A DNA stretch of 36,613 nt from Terriglobia bacterium (GTDB lineage Bacteria; Acidobacteriota; Terriglobia; Terriglobales; Acidobacteriaceae), in the NCBI GenBank assembly GCA_020072845.1, contig JAIQGF010000024.1, positions 1 through 36,613 on the forward strand, read 5' to 3'. Each line of letters begins with the position of its first letter. The stretch's first letter is position 1. Under the pieces are notes generated by a model that was not told where the DNA came from, did not search any database, and was given only the letters and a program-made list of their open reading frames with translations. This document shows positions 2,009 through 35,688 of the stretch, one piece after another. The translations under genes were made by a program, and so were the position numbers.

Positions 2009-2265
2009 ATTTCCTGGCAACTCTTCTGCGCGGTATCGCCTTCGTGCCCGCTGTCGTGCAAGGCGTGGAAAGCCTGTTTGGCAGCAAAGCGGGCAGCGAC
2101 AAGAAGGAAGCCGCGCTCAACTTCGTGGCCTCGGCGCTCGCCATCACCGAAGCCGTGAGCAAGAAAGACATTGTCGACGTGGAGAACTTCCGCGGCGGTC
2201 TCGGCCAGATCATCGACGGCACCGTGCAGTGCCTGAACGCCTCCGCTTGGGCGAAAACGAAATAG
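2005..2265 (+). CDS. Small conserved-looking phage-module protein, function unknown
   Basis: An 86-residue protein starting at the ATG of an ATGA overlap with the endolysin stop; a strong AAGGAG site (1994-1999) sits 5 bases upstream and decides this start over the ATG at 1990. Residues about 1-25 (MNFLATLLRGIAFVPAVVQGVESLFG) are moderately hydrophobic or amphipathic and could contact a membrane; the rest is soluble and helical. I do not recognise the family. Position right after an endolysin and translational coupling suggest a role in lysis or host interaction. The TAG stop (2263-2265) runs directly into a 7-bp repeat block. Confidence 0.65.
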   Translation: MNFLATLLRGIAFVPAVVQGVESLFGSKAGSDKKEAALNFVASALAITEAVSKKDIVDVENFRGGLGQIIDGTVQCLNASAWAKTK

Positions 2266-2368
2266 TCTTCAGTCTTCAGTGTCCAGTCGTCAGTCTTCAG
2301 GCCACTTCTCGGGCGGTCTTTTTTCGCTGACGACTGACGACTGGCGACCGAAGACTGAGGACTGGCGC
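2264..2368. repeat. Inverted pair of 7-bp repeat arrays between convergent genes
   Basis: The left arm (about 2264-2301) is a string of AGTCTTC-like units; the right arm (about 2325-2366) is the same kind of string in inverse orientation (GACGACT, GAAGACT). Folded, the two arms make a long imperfect hairpin around a loop containing GGTCTTTTTTCG. It lies between the stop of the phage-module gene and the stop of the E2 gene on the other strand and touches or nearly touches both stop codons. It could act as a bidirectional terminator, but no clean stem plus U-tract is present. Confidence 0.75.
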
Positions 2369-3712
2369 CTACCCCAGCGGCTCGTTCCAGTTTTCCAGGT
2401 ACCTGGCTACGTCGCGCAGGAACTGGTCGCCCACCGCGCCGTCGATCACGCGGTGATCGTAGCCGAGAATGATGTGGCAGATGGATCGTATCGCGATGGA
2501 ATCGCCGGCGTTCTCGTCGCTGATCACCACCGGTTGTTTCTTGATCGAGCCGACGCCCAGAATCGCTACCTGCGGTTGCATGATGATGGGCAATCCGAAC
2601 ATCTGCCCGTAGCTGCCGGGATTGGTGACCGTAAAGGTGCCGCCCGCGACCTCATCGGGCAGCAGCTTCTTGCTGCGCGCGCGCTCGGCGAGATCGATGA
2701 TCGCCCGCTGGATGCCGAGAAAATTCAGTTCCTCGGCGCGCTTGATCACCGGCACGATCAGCCCCCAATCCAGCGCCACCGCGATGCCGAGGTTCACGTT
2801 GCGGTGGTAATGGAGGTTGTCGCCCTCGACCGACGCGTTGACGATCGGCCAGTTGCGGATGCTTTCGATGGCTGCCCGGCAGAAGAACGGCATCATCGTC
2901 AGCCGCGTGCCCGTGCGCTGTTCAAAGCTCGCCTTCTCGCGCTGCCGGATGGCCATGACGCGCGACAGGTCCACTTCAAAAACGCTGTGCACGTGCGCGC
3001 TGGTGCGCTTCGACTGCACCATGCGCTCCGCGATTTTCTTACGCATCGCCGACATCGGCATCACTTCGCCGGGAATGGCGATGGGCTGCTGCGACGGCAT
3101 CGCCGGGGCCGCGGATCCGGGCTGGTACGCCGGCGCGCTCGCCGCCGGGCGTTGGGCGGGGTGCTCGACGAAGCGGACGATGTCTTCCTTCGTGATCCGT
3201 CCGCCGAGGCCGGTGCCCTGCACCTGGTTCAGATCAATGCTGTTCTCGCGCGCGATGCGGCGCACCAGCGGCGACGACCGTATCCGTTCGCCTTCTTCGC
3301 CCTGCCCGTGCGGGAATTGCAGGACCGTGGACTCGTCCTCCTGCTCTTCGCCGGCGGTTGTCTTCGCGGCGGTTTTCGCGGGCTCCGGCGCGCGCTGCGC
3401 GGCTTCGGGTTTCGCAGTTGCCGGCGCGGCGGCCTGGGGTTGCGGCGCTGCGGCGGGCGCGCCCGCAGCTTCGCCCTCGGCGGCGATCGTCCCCACCACC
3501 GTGTTCACTTGCACGGTCGTGCCTTCGGGAACCTTGATCTCCTTCAACACGCCCGCCGTCGGCGACGGAATCTCGGCATCAACCTTGTCGGTGGAAATTT
3601 CAAACAGCGGTTCGTCACGCGACACCTTATCGCCCGGCTTCTTCAGCCACTTGGTGATGGTGCCTTCAAAAATCGATTCCCCCATCTGGGGCATGACAAC
3701 GTCAGTCGGCAT
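2369..3712 (-). CDS. Dihydrolipoamide acyltransferase, E2 of a 2-oxoacid dehydrogenase complex
   Basis: A 447-residue E2 core enzyme that moves the acyl group from E1 to coenzyme A by its swinging lipoyl arm. One lipoyl domain spans residues 1-80 with the lipoylated lysine at 43 (STDKVDAEIPS). An Ala/Pro/Gln-rich linker follows, then a peripheral subunit-binding domain at about 145-184 (RSSPLVRRIAREN, GRITKEDI), a second linker, and the catalytic domain from about 218 to the end with the HRVIDGA motif (His420, Asp424). It is the last gene after E1-alpha and E1-beta on this strand. Separate E1 subunits and the single lipoyl domain suit a branched-chain 2-oxoacid complex, but pyruvate or 2-oxoglutarate cannot be excluded by eye. 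lipB and lpdA upstream supply lipoylation and E3. Confidence 0.93.
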   Translation of the reverse strand: MPTDVVMPQMGESIFEGTITKWLKKPGDKVSRDEPLFEISTDKVDAEIPSPTAGVLKEIKVPEGTTVQVNTVVGTIAAEGEAAGAPAAAPQPQAAAPATAKPEAAQRAPEPAKTAAKTTAGEEQEDESTVLQFPHGQGEEGERIRSSPLVRRIARENSIDLNQVQGTGLGGRITKEDIVRFVEHPAQRPAASAPAYQPGSAAPAMPSQQPIAIPGEVMPMSAMRKKIAERMVQSKRTSAHVHSVFEVDLSRVMAIRQREKASFEQRTGTRLTMMPFFCRAAIESIRNWPIVNASVEGDNLHYHRNVNLGIAVALDWGLIVPVIKRAEELNFLGIQRAIIDLAERARSKKLLPDEVAGGTFTVTNPGSYGQMFGLPIIMQPQVAILGVGSIKKQPVVISDENAGDSIAIRSICHIILGYDHRVIDGAVGDQFLRDVARYLENWNEPLG

Positions 3713-3792
3713 CGTCGTCCTTCTTTCGCAAAATCAGAGCGGGATCACCGCTACAGGGCGCGCGGACACCCCATCCGCAACCGGACATTATA

Positions 3793-3887
3793 AGTCTTCA
3801 GTCTTCAGTCTTCAGTCTTCGGTCTTCAGTCGCCAGGCAACGCGCAGATCCGTTTTCCTGAAGACTGACGACCGACGACTGAAGACT
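3793..3887. repeat. Inverted pair of 7-bp repeat arrays between E2 and E1-beta
   Basis: The left arm (3793-3834) consists of AGTCTTC units in tandem with one GGTCTTC variant; the right arm (3858-3887) is the inverse (GAAGACT, GACGACC). The loop is about 23 bases. The right arm overlaps the E1-beta stop codon (TAG on the minus strand, 3886-3888): read on that strand the stop is the first part of TAGTCTTC. The element separates two genes that should be co-transcribed. Confidence 0.85.
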
Positions 3888-34790: not shown

Positions 34791-34816
34791 GTCATCCCGA
34801 GCGCAGCGAGGGATCT
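34791..34816. repeat. GTCATCCCGAGCGCAGCGAGGGATCT-type intergenic element, part
   Basis: ATCCC (34794-34798) and GGGAT (34810-34814) bracket GAGCGCAGCGA. The element has the form TCATCCCGAGCG followed by CAGCGAGGGATCT, which I have seen as a recurrent intergenic sequence in several soil bacteria. It is directly followed by a 7-bp repeat array. Confidence 0.6.
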
Positions 34817-34817
34817 A

Positions 34818-34874
34818 GGTTTTCGGTTTTCGGTTTTCGGTTTTCGGTACTCGGTTTTCGGCACTCGGCACTTA
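34818..34874. repeat. 7-bp GGTTTTC tandem repeat fused to the ispF stop
   Basis: Units GGTTTTC four times, GGTACTC, GGTTTTC, GGCACTC, GGCACTT, ending in the TTA that is the ispF stop (TAA on the minus strand, 34874-34872). No inverse arm. Confidence 0.85.
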
Positions 34875-35450
34875 CTTTTTCTTCCACTTCGACCCCACCG
34901 CGCTCTCCACCAGGCTCTCCGCCACCGAATCCACCACCGGTTGGGGCACGGATTCCAGCGCCTCGGCTTGCTGCCGCCGCTTGCCCGCCTTCTTGGTCAA
35001 CAACACGACGACGTGCGCGATGGCAGCATTGTCGGTACCCATTCCTTCGGGCGTCTTCGCCTTCACCCCGACCGCCGCCGGCTCAATGCTCAACAGCTCC
35101 GCGACCCGCCTCTGAATCAGCGCCGCGTGCGGCCCAATCCTGGGCTCGGCCAGGATGAGCGTGGAATCCACGTTCGCCACCGCGTATCCCGCGCGCTCCA
35201 CATGCTCCAGCGCAGTCCGCAAGAACACCGCGGAGTCAGCGCCTTTCCAGCGCGCGTCCGACGGCGGAAAATACGTGCCGATGTCCCCCGCCGCAATCGC
35301 GCCCAGCAACGCGTCGGTCAAGGCGTGCAGCAACACGTCTCCGTCGGAGTGCCCCGCCAGCCCCTTGGGGTGAGCGATCGTCACCCCGCCGATCTTCAGC
35401 GGTATCCCGGGCTTGAACTCGTGTGAATCCCAGCCGTATCCGATTCTCAT
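34872..35450 (-). CDS. ispF: 2-C-methyl-D-erythritol 2,4-cyclodiphosphate synthase
   Basis: A 192-residue IspF, which cyclises CDP-methylerythritol phosphate in the MEP route to isoprenoids. MRIGYGWDSHEF supplies the Asp and His metal ligands (DSH); GHSDGDVLLHALTDALLGA and GDIGTYFPPSD are diagnostic; EGMGTDNAAIAHVV ends the fold. The start at 35450 gives the canonical MRIGYGWDSH; eight upstream codons of the longer frame lie in a repeat and are unlikely. About 35 extra residues at the C-terminus (Gln/Glu/Val/Ser-rich, ending KWKKK) exceed the usual length of about 157 and run into the repeat array. ispD lies upstream on the same strand beyond a repeat-filled gap. Confidence 0.95.
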   Translation of the reverse strand: MRIGYGWDSHEFKPGIPLKIGGVTIAHPKGLAGHSDGDVLLHALTDALLGAIAAGDIGTYFPPSDARWKGADSAVFLRTALEHVERAGYAVANVDSTLILAEPRIGPHAALIQRRVAELLSIEPAAVGVKAKTPEGMGTDNAAIAHVVVLLTKKAGKRRQQAEALESVPQPVVDSVAESLVESAVGSKWKKK

Positions 35451-35688
35451 GTATTGGCCACGGATATTAACCACGGATTTTCACGGGCCCAATTCGTTGT
35501 AGACATCGTAGAAGACACCAATGATTTTCTGCGTGAGCTCGCCGTACTTCAGGCCGGGGGCATTGGTGGTTGAACCGGCGCCACTCGATTTAGACGGCTC
35601 ACTCATGTCTTTGTTCCAATCCGTGTTCATCCGTGGCTAGGCTTTTTCCGTGTTCTGATCCGTGTTCATCCGTGGAGATCCGCGGTTA
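35451..35688. repeat. Repeats of CACGGAT / ATCCGTGTTC type around a gene fragment
   Basis: On the left, CCACGGATATTAACCACGGATTTTCACGG (parts of 35459-35486); on the right, ATCCGTGTTCATCCGTGG at about 35619-35637 and again ATCCGTGTTCATCCGTGG at about 35659-35676 followed by AGATCCGCGG. Period is 10-11 bases. The right side runs into the ispD stop (TTA, 35686-35688), the left side into the stop of the fragment at 35481. Similar CGCGGATTAA units occur at 4906-4934. Confidence 0.75.
35481..35606 (-). pseudogene. Truncated GxxExxY-family gene
   Basis: A 41-codon frame on the minus strand starting with ATG at 35606: after a Ser/Gly-rich start it reads LKYGELTQKIIGVFYDVYNE then LGP and a stop. This is the beginning of the GxxExxY family (DUF/PF13366-type), whose next residues should be GFLESVYE; instead the sequence enters the CACGGAT-type repeat and stops. 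At least two thirds of the gene is missing. Function of the family is unknown. Whether the short peptide is made is unclear. Confidence 0.7.

Follow-up and report, generated by a model that had tools for sequence, protein, structure and literature searches.

Among the short repeats of bacteria, the short tandemly repeated repetitive (STRR) sequences are named heptamer units of heterocystous cyanobacteria, and the repetitive extragenic palindromic (REP) sequences associated with RAYT transposases are intergenic palindromes. Heptanucleotide elements of Geobacter metallireducens have been read as binding sites of a global regulator or as RNA elements (PMC2700814), the P6b stem of the Nostoc trnL intron is a heptamer hairpin inside a self-splicing intron (PMC3488679), and the TAACTGA repeats of the Beggiatoaceae are 7-bp tandem repeats that are genome-wide, mostly intergenic and oriented, with cold-shock proteins discussed as their binders (MacGregor 2015; PMC4679880). 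The G-rich heptamer GGGAATC or GGGGA(C/T)T of Xanthomonas and Nostoc (Rehm et al. 2015; PMC4692102) lies, according to the parts of that report drawn on here, no more than 50 bp from stop codons when on the sense strand, or up to 50 bp upstream of open reading frames (ORFs) when on the antisense strand; it mostly has four units, its inverted pairs are frequent in Xanthomonas, and its function is given as unknown, quadruplexes having been proposed. The same report describes heptamer repeats as over-represented in many bacteria, with no settled explanation. Here we describe, in a 36,613-bp stretch of acidobacterial DNA (the window; contig JAIQGF010000024.1 of assembly GCA_020072845.1) and in the genome to which it belongs, a class of element that consists mostly of four to five units of 6 to 8 bp, mostly 7, directly past stop codons; in many cases a second arm, inverted and built from the same unit family, follows farther on. 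An earlier note, made from the letters of the window, had pointed to such repeats and knew of no described element with these properties, a statement that the similar heptamer of Xanthomonas and Nostoc overturns.

Arrays of heptamers lie directly past stop codons

The window belongs to a 4.23-Mb assembly (62% GC) of a soil acidobacterium, here called G000, whose DnaB protein, 93% identical to that of the metagenome-assembled genome (MAG) SRVP_22, puts it in the Terriglobia near this MAG and Ca. Sulfotelmatobacter. Our sample of this genome comprised 800 kb plus the window, 836,613 bp in all or about 20% of G000, and 642 genes were called in it with a home-made caller (dicodon model). Arrays were located with a home-made finder (periods 5 to 12, score at least 14), and Tandem Repeats Finder (TRF) was used on the window. 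Three genomes of the same genus, G001, G002 and G003, served as congeners.

Period-7 arrays numbered 190 in the sample and 0 in the single Markov-1 sequence of equal length that served as the chance control for abundance, and 169 of the 190 were intergenic. Four to five units were present in 121 of these 169, a share to be read with the score threshold in mind, as it drops most arrays with fewer units. For the 236 intergenic arrays of period 6 to 8, 92 of 264 flanking stop codons lay within 5 nt of an array, compared with 25.4 expected from uniform placement within the gap, and none of 5,000 simulations gave a value as high. These distance counts exclude arrays that lie mostly inside genes or lack a clear flanking gene pair, and they treat arrays singly, though arms occur in pairs. 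Stop codons were similarly favored in G001 (24 of 65, 6.6 expected) and at 78 loci from other Terriglobia (12 of 31, 3.5 expected), and at the latter loci 0 of 49 start codons had an array this close (1.5 expected). Arrays were scarce 11 to 40 nt from stops (32, compared with 70.7 expected), and divergent gaps were sparser in arrays, with 30 in 33.7 kb versus 62 in 31.3 kb of convergent gaps. Chance comes nowhere near explaining either the abundance of period-7 arrays or their proximity to stops, and the random intergenic placement that the earlier note had set out as the alternative is not what the genome displays. Arrays also follow the genes for nusG, L1 and L10, and stand between rpoB and rpoC (genes confirmed by Pfam). 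Overall, heptamer arrays at gene ends are a real, little-studied type of gene-end sequence.

The units share a consensus and mostly run with the gene

Units had been described as differing from place to place. This is so on the surface, the commonest units near stops being AATTTGT, AGTTTC and AGTCTTC, but beneath it the units share a degenerate consensus. Read in gene sense in one fitted register, the 86 near-stop arrays yielded RRYYNNY at 3.57 bits, compared with a mean of 2.27 and a maximum of 2.41 in 20 permutations of positions, and all 169 intergenic period-7 arrays gave 3.75 bits, compared with a maximum of 2.63 in 60 permutations. Differences between the units of one array peak at register position 5, which differs in 0.50 of unit pairs versus 0.21 to 0.38 elsewhere, and the ratio of maximum to mean was 1.57 in the 169 arrays, compared with at most 1.29 in controls fitted the same way. 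Such a concentration is not predicted by slippage plus random mutation, which should spread differences evenly.

Because RRYY reads nearly the same on both strands, the consensus alone is no proof of direction, which rests on other evidence. By a crude measure, the base composition polarity of the array (T>A versus A>T), near-stop arrays were T>A:A>T in a ratio of 83:13 (4 ties) in G000 and 21:5 (1 tie) in G001. YAG (CAG or TAG) was commoner in the sense than in the antisense reading in G000 (43:18 with 32 ties, n = 93), in G001 (13:6 with 8 ties, n = 27) and in other Terriglobia (13:0, n = 13). Polarity also follows the genes across the gap: in tandem gaps, T>A:A>T was 62:20 for the left half and 13:40 for the right, and the corresponding ratios were 26:5 and 2:22 for convergent gaps and 9:3 and 7:10 for divergent ones. 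Arrays thus mostly run in gene sense. Moreover, 37 of 89 near-stop arrays (12.7 expected) have the two purines of their unit in register with those of the stop codon, mostly TAG, compared with 4 of 46 farther arrays.

In the AGTC family, AGTCTTC and AGTCGTC alternate in a 14-bp pattern in 13 runs, with 26 unequal neighbors versus 19.4 expected, a value reached in 0 of 500 permutations, hinting at copying between loci. A shared alternating order found no support in five other unit patterns tested, and a spread of whole arrays between loci was rejected because the AGTC family alone shows such an order. The idea that arrays supply spare stops in the three reading frames was also set aside, since AGTTTC, AGTCTTC and AGTGGCC, judged by reading the units rather than by a count, have no sense stop.

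The elements are two-armed

The typical layout is a stop codon, 0 to 6 nt, four to five sense units, a loop and then units of opposite sense. In 60 strong inverted repeats the loop measured 4 to 198 nt, with a median of 26. Neighboring arrays of one gap, taken as inverted repeats, had a mean score of 13.8, versus 6.7 for arms from other gaps (63 pairs); the true partner arm ranked in the top four in 28 of the 63 pairs and near the bottom in others, where the gap holds unrelated elements or direct copies. Among gaps that had arrays, inverted repeats scoring at least 16 were present in 42% of tandem gaps (n = 88) and 53% of convergent gaps (n = 34); among gaps without arrays the figures were 8% (n = 149) and 28% (n = 25). 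Of 49 tandem-gap repeats, 37 had their left edge no more than 10 nt from the stop (21.8 expected) and 11 extended to within 10 nt of the following start; a repeat in a convergent gap fills the gap, and its placement is uninformative (14 of 25, 14.7 expected).

Arrays come and go between related species while genes keep their ends

When no more than two mismatches were allowed, the pattern (AGTCTTC)2.5 had 236 partly overlapping matches in G000, 4 in G001, 21 in G002 and 0 in G003, figures for which the backwards-read control is not a clean null, being itself a repeat unit (12+22, 8+13, 33+34 and 16+3 matches in the same order). The density of period-7 arrays was about 202 per Mb in G000 versus 62 in G001, and the 15-kb contig L009 had none. 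Among 115 reciprocal-best ortholog comparisons (100 with G001, 15 with G002, some genes being counted twice), an array was present at the G000 stop in 24, E1-beta being left out because its called array runs into the gene. In 19 of the 24 no array was detected in the congener, so that these are not the same arrays at orthologous sites in all relatives, as plain old intergenic sequence might be; absence here means none above the score threshold and is partly a threshold effect, at least two sites, the L10 and rpoC ends in G001, keeping a degenerate array by eye.

The proteins encoded at these 19 sites keep their ends. The C terminus was equally long in all 19 comparisons with an array in G000 only, in 4 of 5 with arrays on both sides, in 3 of 4 with an array only in the congener and in 60 of 87 with no array. 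Where a TAG stop carried an array, the congener also had TAG in 13 of 16 cases (23 of 38 for TAG stops without arrays), so the stop usually predates the array. It had been proposed that a gene is eroded back to whichever stop codon the repeat provides first, and the 14 of 274 stop flanks in which the array starts at least 9 bases before the called gene end would suit that proposal, but the equal C termini and the kept TAG stops rule it out for all save a small minority of genes.

The other proposal, that some process adds sequence at gene ends, stands as a description, given the many sites without a detectable array in congeners. In the window, the gap between the E1-beta and E2 genes holds 93 nt of arm, loop and arm between the stop and a TATAAT; the corresponding interval is 11 nt long in G002 and consists of 77 nt of different sequence in G001. 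The description needs amending in one respect. In a comparison based on 83 orthologous gaps, the 19 gaps with an array in G000 only were a median 18 bp longer than the congener gap and held a median 62 bp of array (the 44 gaps without arrays were a median 10 bp longer in G000), which argues that arrays partly replace other sequence; pure addition of bases was rejected because gap growth falls far below array length.

Units may also change at one site. The gap between E2 and the small gene whose stop begins at 2263 (the 2263 gene) has AGTCTTC in G000 and GGCNNTC in the congener, and the rpoB/rpoC gap has the similar AGTGGCC versus AGTGGTT/AGTGGCT. At the end of rpoC a terminator-like hairpin is conserved and the sequence from stop to hairpin is different. 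In L013 the dnaB array is 14 bp, exactly two units, shorter than in G000. This 4.5-kb contig (JAIQFN010000125.1) of MAG SRVP_6 is 97% like G000 dnaB, and the rest of the bin matches a 4-kb window query much less; it is possibly mis-binned. Farther afield, 15 of the 60 family genomes contained the AATTTGT unit, and the control gave a single match in all of them together. Around 20 chosen AATTTGT-type matches in seven other genomes, with the nearest stop assignable for 25 of 29 listed arrays, 10 of 10 arrays within 12 nt of a stop were in gene sense, and these came from four genera.

How the arrays may arise and persist

We tentatively favor, at a little under even confidence, an explanation in which arrays are renewed by slippage and inverted copying and kept partly as binding sites at 3' ends. 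Arrays would be seeded at or beside the stop, with the Y-R-R of TAG often serving as the first unit, and would grow by slippage of whole units, as the whole-unit length change of the dnaB array in L013 suggests. The second arm would be gained through inverted (fold-back) copying at the DNA level, because the arms of one gap tend to belong to one unit family, and sequence would be added or rewritten past gene ends, since those ends are fixed. Each heptamer may then offer one binding site, at the 3' end of the mRNA, to a single-strand-binding protein tolerant of sequence variation, rather than form part of an RNA hairpin; retention as binding sites would account for a unit that is constrained and tends to point with transcription. 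More broadly, the orientation, the common unit and the free position favor something that reads or writes the heptamer in gene direction. A cold-shock-domain protein would be the most obvious candidate binder. Bacillus subtilis CspB prefers the pyrimidine-rich heptamer d(GTCTTTG/C) (PMC7825780), whose G form, read from position 2, fits the consensus, as a lead only, about 22% of random heptamers fitting RRYYNNY in some rotation. Persistence of long inverted repeats may be helped by the background of the family. SbcD (TIGR00619) had no match in the four genus genomes, G000 included, and none over cut-off in 60 family genomes (8 of 60 had weak matches below it; 13 of 14 controls matched, only 8 of 14 over cut-off), so that it is likely absent from the family, and this absence, if true, may let such repeats persist. 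Loss of SbcCD, a hairpin nuclease, as the cause of array expansion was rejected, the absence being a shared background and not the difference between genomes.

Several observations weigh against this explanation. The consensus is nearly strand-symmetric, random strand flips still giving 3.31 bits (maximum 3.39), and it could stem from a biased synthesis process and not from selection. The T>A bias fails in the other Terriglobia (5:7, a small set), and two AATTTGT-type arrays whose distances to a stop are 13 and 14 nt run antisense, farther ones being mixed. Seeding at the stop leaves the 52 of 89 near-stop arrays that are out of register unexplained, and local slippage does not explain why the same unit recurs in other genera. 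Start codons show a weak excess of their own, with 22 of 208 in G000 within 5 nt of an array (14.7 expected, p 0.024) and 11 of 57 in G001 (6.3 expected, p 0.02). Gain or loss as fast as the 19 of 24 sites imply is odd for something needed, and G000 has no surplus of cold-shock-domain genes (4, versus 3, 3 and 5 in the congeners).

Neutral repeats are only slightly less probable: slippage and fold-back copying would act everywhere, and their products would survive only where sequence is unconstrained, directly past stops and ahead of the terminator, whereas genes, ribosome-binding sites and promoters would not retain them. Fast turnover, the difference in density between congeners and the empty contig L009 all suit this possibility, as do the whole-unit change in the dnaB array, the mostly unique loops, the scarcity of arrays 11 to 40 nt from stops and their lower density in divergent gaps. 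It gives no account, however, of the gene-sense bias of out-of-register arrays, of the shared consensus, of variation concentrated at one register position or of the same unit in other genera. The lack of an RNA-stem signature, which also fits neutrality, counts against the idea that the two arms are transcription terminators or mRNA-stabilizing hairpins built of repeats. That idea draws on the enrichment of inverted repeats in gaps with arrays, on their left edges near stops and on stable folds (median z of -3.1 in 25 tandem gaps and -2.7 in 18 convergent gaps, with at most 25 gaps per class). A kept RNA stem should favor G.U over A.C mismatches, and in tandem gaps the arms had 35 G.U and 34 A.C, hence no sign of one (14 versus 27 in convergent gaps, p 0.06). 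In addition, a strong inverted repeat is missing from 58% of the tandem gaps that have arrays, and arrays sit between rpoB and rpoC. Nor do these mismatch counts and the terminator counts that follow show the GC-rich RNA stem, kept by selection and followed by a T run, of an intrinsic terminator. Terminator-like sites were no commoner at array stops than in shuffled sequence (8 versus 7 of 84, a weak test, few terminators being found in G000), compared with 50 versus 24 of 377 at stops without arrays, though where both occur the array comes first at 8 of 8 stops. Terminators or stabilizing hairpins are therefore improbable.

Insertion after stops of a mobile or REP-like palindromic element, for instance one moved by RAYT/Y1 transposases, would explain why 93 nt of arm, loop and arm occupy a place that holds 11 nt in G002. 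The genome does contain Y1 transposase genes, including one in the window. Of 51 loops of at least 12 nt, 10 match elsewhere in the sample, in up to 45 places, but 39 match only themselves and 2 had no match; a single pair of loops is similar, the units differ, and the numbers of Y1 genes (9, 12, 9 and 1 in G000 to G003) do not track array density. Copies sharing internal sequence, as in miniature inverted-repeat transposable elements or REP sequences, were not found among these loops. That the arrays are copies of one mobile element is unlikely, and insertion of any such element is a slim prospect. Slimmer still is the G-quadruplex, proposed for the Xanthomonas heptamer, which the arrays resemble in position, orientation, unit number and pairing (PMC4692102, in the parts cited). 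As a general rule it is refuted here, since four runs of G3 or C3 occur in 1 of 169 intergenic period-7 arrays and the commonest near-stop units are those listed above.

Arrays in the window

Repeats had been claimed at the stops of nine genes in the window, and at eight of the nine TRF finds an array overlapping the stop or within 5 nt of it (Table 1); lpdA is the exception, as neither TRF nor the finder detects a tandem array at its stop (9970-9972), where only an inverted repeat of the CACAGAGG type is seen by eye. The claimed periods were 6 to 11, mostly 7. At six of the nine genes the array passes the stricter finder, each with period 7, and the ispD array is weak, with a period of 10. 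By TRF the dnaB array spans 27025-27053 and the ispF array 34818-34872. Pfam backs the gene names E2, E1-beta, dnaB, bactofilin, IspF and IspD, together with a lipoamide-dehydrogenase-like protein and sigma-70; the 2263 gene and ORF 4911-5555 (-), which we took for the previously named GxxExxY fragment, have no Pfam match and their names are unconfirmed.

Table 1. Tandem arrays near gene ends in the window
Array	Position	Strand	Relation to genes	Found by
AGTCTTC, 5.3 copies	2264-2300	+	Starts inside TAG stop (2263-2265) of small gene 2005-2265 (+); left arm of two-armed element	TRF, finder
Partner arm, E2-sense units AGTCCTC/AGTCTTC/AGTCGTC	2327-2364	-	4 nt past E2 stop (2369-2371, -)	TRF, finder
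Sense unit AGTCTTC/AGTCGTC	3858-3887	-	In register with E1-beta stop TAG (3886-3888, -)	TRF, finder
Partner arm of E1-beta array	3793-3836	+	Immediately precedes TATAAT upstream of E2, TATAAT common to both congeners	TRF, finder
AGTTTC, 6 bp	4862-4905	+	Between stop of ORF 4911-5555 (-) and E1-beta start	TRF, finder
GAGTACC type, weak, 3.6 copies	16311-16335	-	3 nt past bactofilin stop (16339-16341)	TRF, below finder threshold
AGCTATT/AGCTCTT	24616-24646	+	First base is last base of rpoD stop TAA	TRF, finder
AGCTATC	27025-27059	+	In register with dnaB stop TAG	TRF, finder
Partner arm in dnaB gap, other unit (sense GGTTNTC), arms pair only partly	27070-27100	-		TRF, finder
GGTTTTC (+ strand), A-rich in gene sense (minority)	34811-34872	-	Abuts ispF stop (34872-34874, -)	TRF, finder
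ATCCGTG type, weak, 10 bp; other repeat class, similar layout	35657-35682	-	Adjoins ispD stop (35686-35688, -)	TRF

The stop of the 2263 gene is identical in the congeners and the sequence beyond it is different, and the E1-beta stop is TGA in the congeners, without a comparable array. Neither the rpoD nor the dnaB stop has an array above threshold in G001 or G002. Window arrays away from stops lie at 1932-1965, 11555-11584 and 21370-21398.

Other repeat classes with a two-armed look and longer units (period about 8 to 12) are seen at gene ends at 9892-9969, 35481-35685 and 4905-4933, of the CACAGAGG type and the ATCCGTG / CGCGGATTAA type. A palindromic-looking repeat, GTCATCCCGAGCGCAGCGAGGGATCT, lies at 34791-34816, just before the ispF array, and variants of it are visible in other G000 gaps. 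No gene was called in the rpoD-dnaB interval 24617-25655, a gap of 1,039 bp in G000, 983 bp in G001 and 2,074 bp in G002. The window also encodes a Y1 (IS200-like/RAYT-type) transposase at 28821-29267 (+) (Pfam PF01797, E 1.9e-24), and G000 has nine PF01797 matches.

Comparison with known systems

In G000 the arrays resemble REP sequences and their RAYTs in being intergenic palindromes in a genome with Y1 transposases, and differ from them in having arms that are tandem repeats and no conserved core or shared loop. With the Geobacter metallireducens elements they share four to five tandem heptamers, one class of which is drawn as two strands of a loop (PMC2700814), and with the heptamers of the Nostoc trnL P6b stem a length that differs mainly by copy number, although the latter are not tied to stops in the part of the source cited (PMC3488679). 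The TAACTGA repeats are likewise 7-bp tandem repeats, genome-wide, mostly intergenic and oriented, but they have one unit in 2 to 6 copies, lie mostly just upstream of start codons and form, as far as the cited part of the source goes, a single inverted pair genome-wide (PMC4679880); G000 is not of this type, as its units differ and its arrays adjoin stops far more than starts. An RRYY core occurs in some rotation in all six published heptamer units that we checked (44% of random units have one) and the full RRYYNNY in two of six (22% expected), a comparison that is post hoc and made on units that are not independent. Among the top-ranked results of a search of the open-access literature we found no report of such arrays in Acidobacteria.

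The single detailed study we found of a stop-proximal, sense-strand, four-unit layout ties that layout to G-quadruplexes (PMC4692102, in the parts cited). A very similar layout built from units almost wholly unable to form quadruplexes rules the quadruplex out as the general reason for it. From the common consensus, the register relative to the stop codon and the orthologous sites that have or lack arrays, testable predictions can also be drawn on what makes or reads gene-end sequence in bacteria, in place of a loosely defined wealth of repeats. One bold reading, which we regard as rather unlikely, is a gene-end code in this acidobacterial family, in which a transcription-oriented RRYYNNY heptamer with a single free position, in four to five copies, would bind one protein per heptamer on emerging 3' ends, with species "dictionaries" that are renewed fast while position, direction and register stay constant, and of which the Xanthomonas repeats would be another dialect.

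The arrays of G000 share with the Xanthomonas and Nostoc heptamer an intergenic location, about four units, a sense-strand position near or overlapping stops, inverted pairs, rarity between divergent genes and no link to gene function (PMC4692102, in the parts cited). The latter has one G-rich unit able to form quadruplexes, in 83% of cases sits at corresponding loci in two species and is also found in antisense upstream of ORFs. G000, in contrast, has many units, hardly any of them capable of forming quadruplexes, a fast turnover at orthologous stops, a register with the stop and one consensus. In layout its arrays are stop-proximal heptamers of the Xanthomonas type, and in lacking the G-rich quadruplex unit they are not strict members of that group. 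They are a new multi-unit, non-quadruplex variant of the stop-proximal heptamer repeats already known from Xanthomonas.

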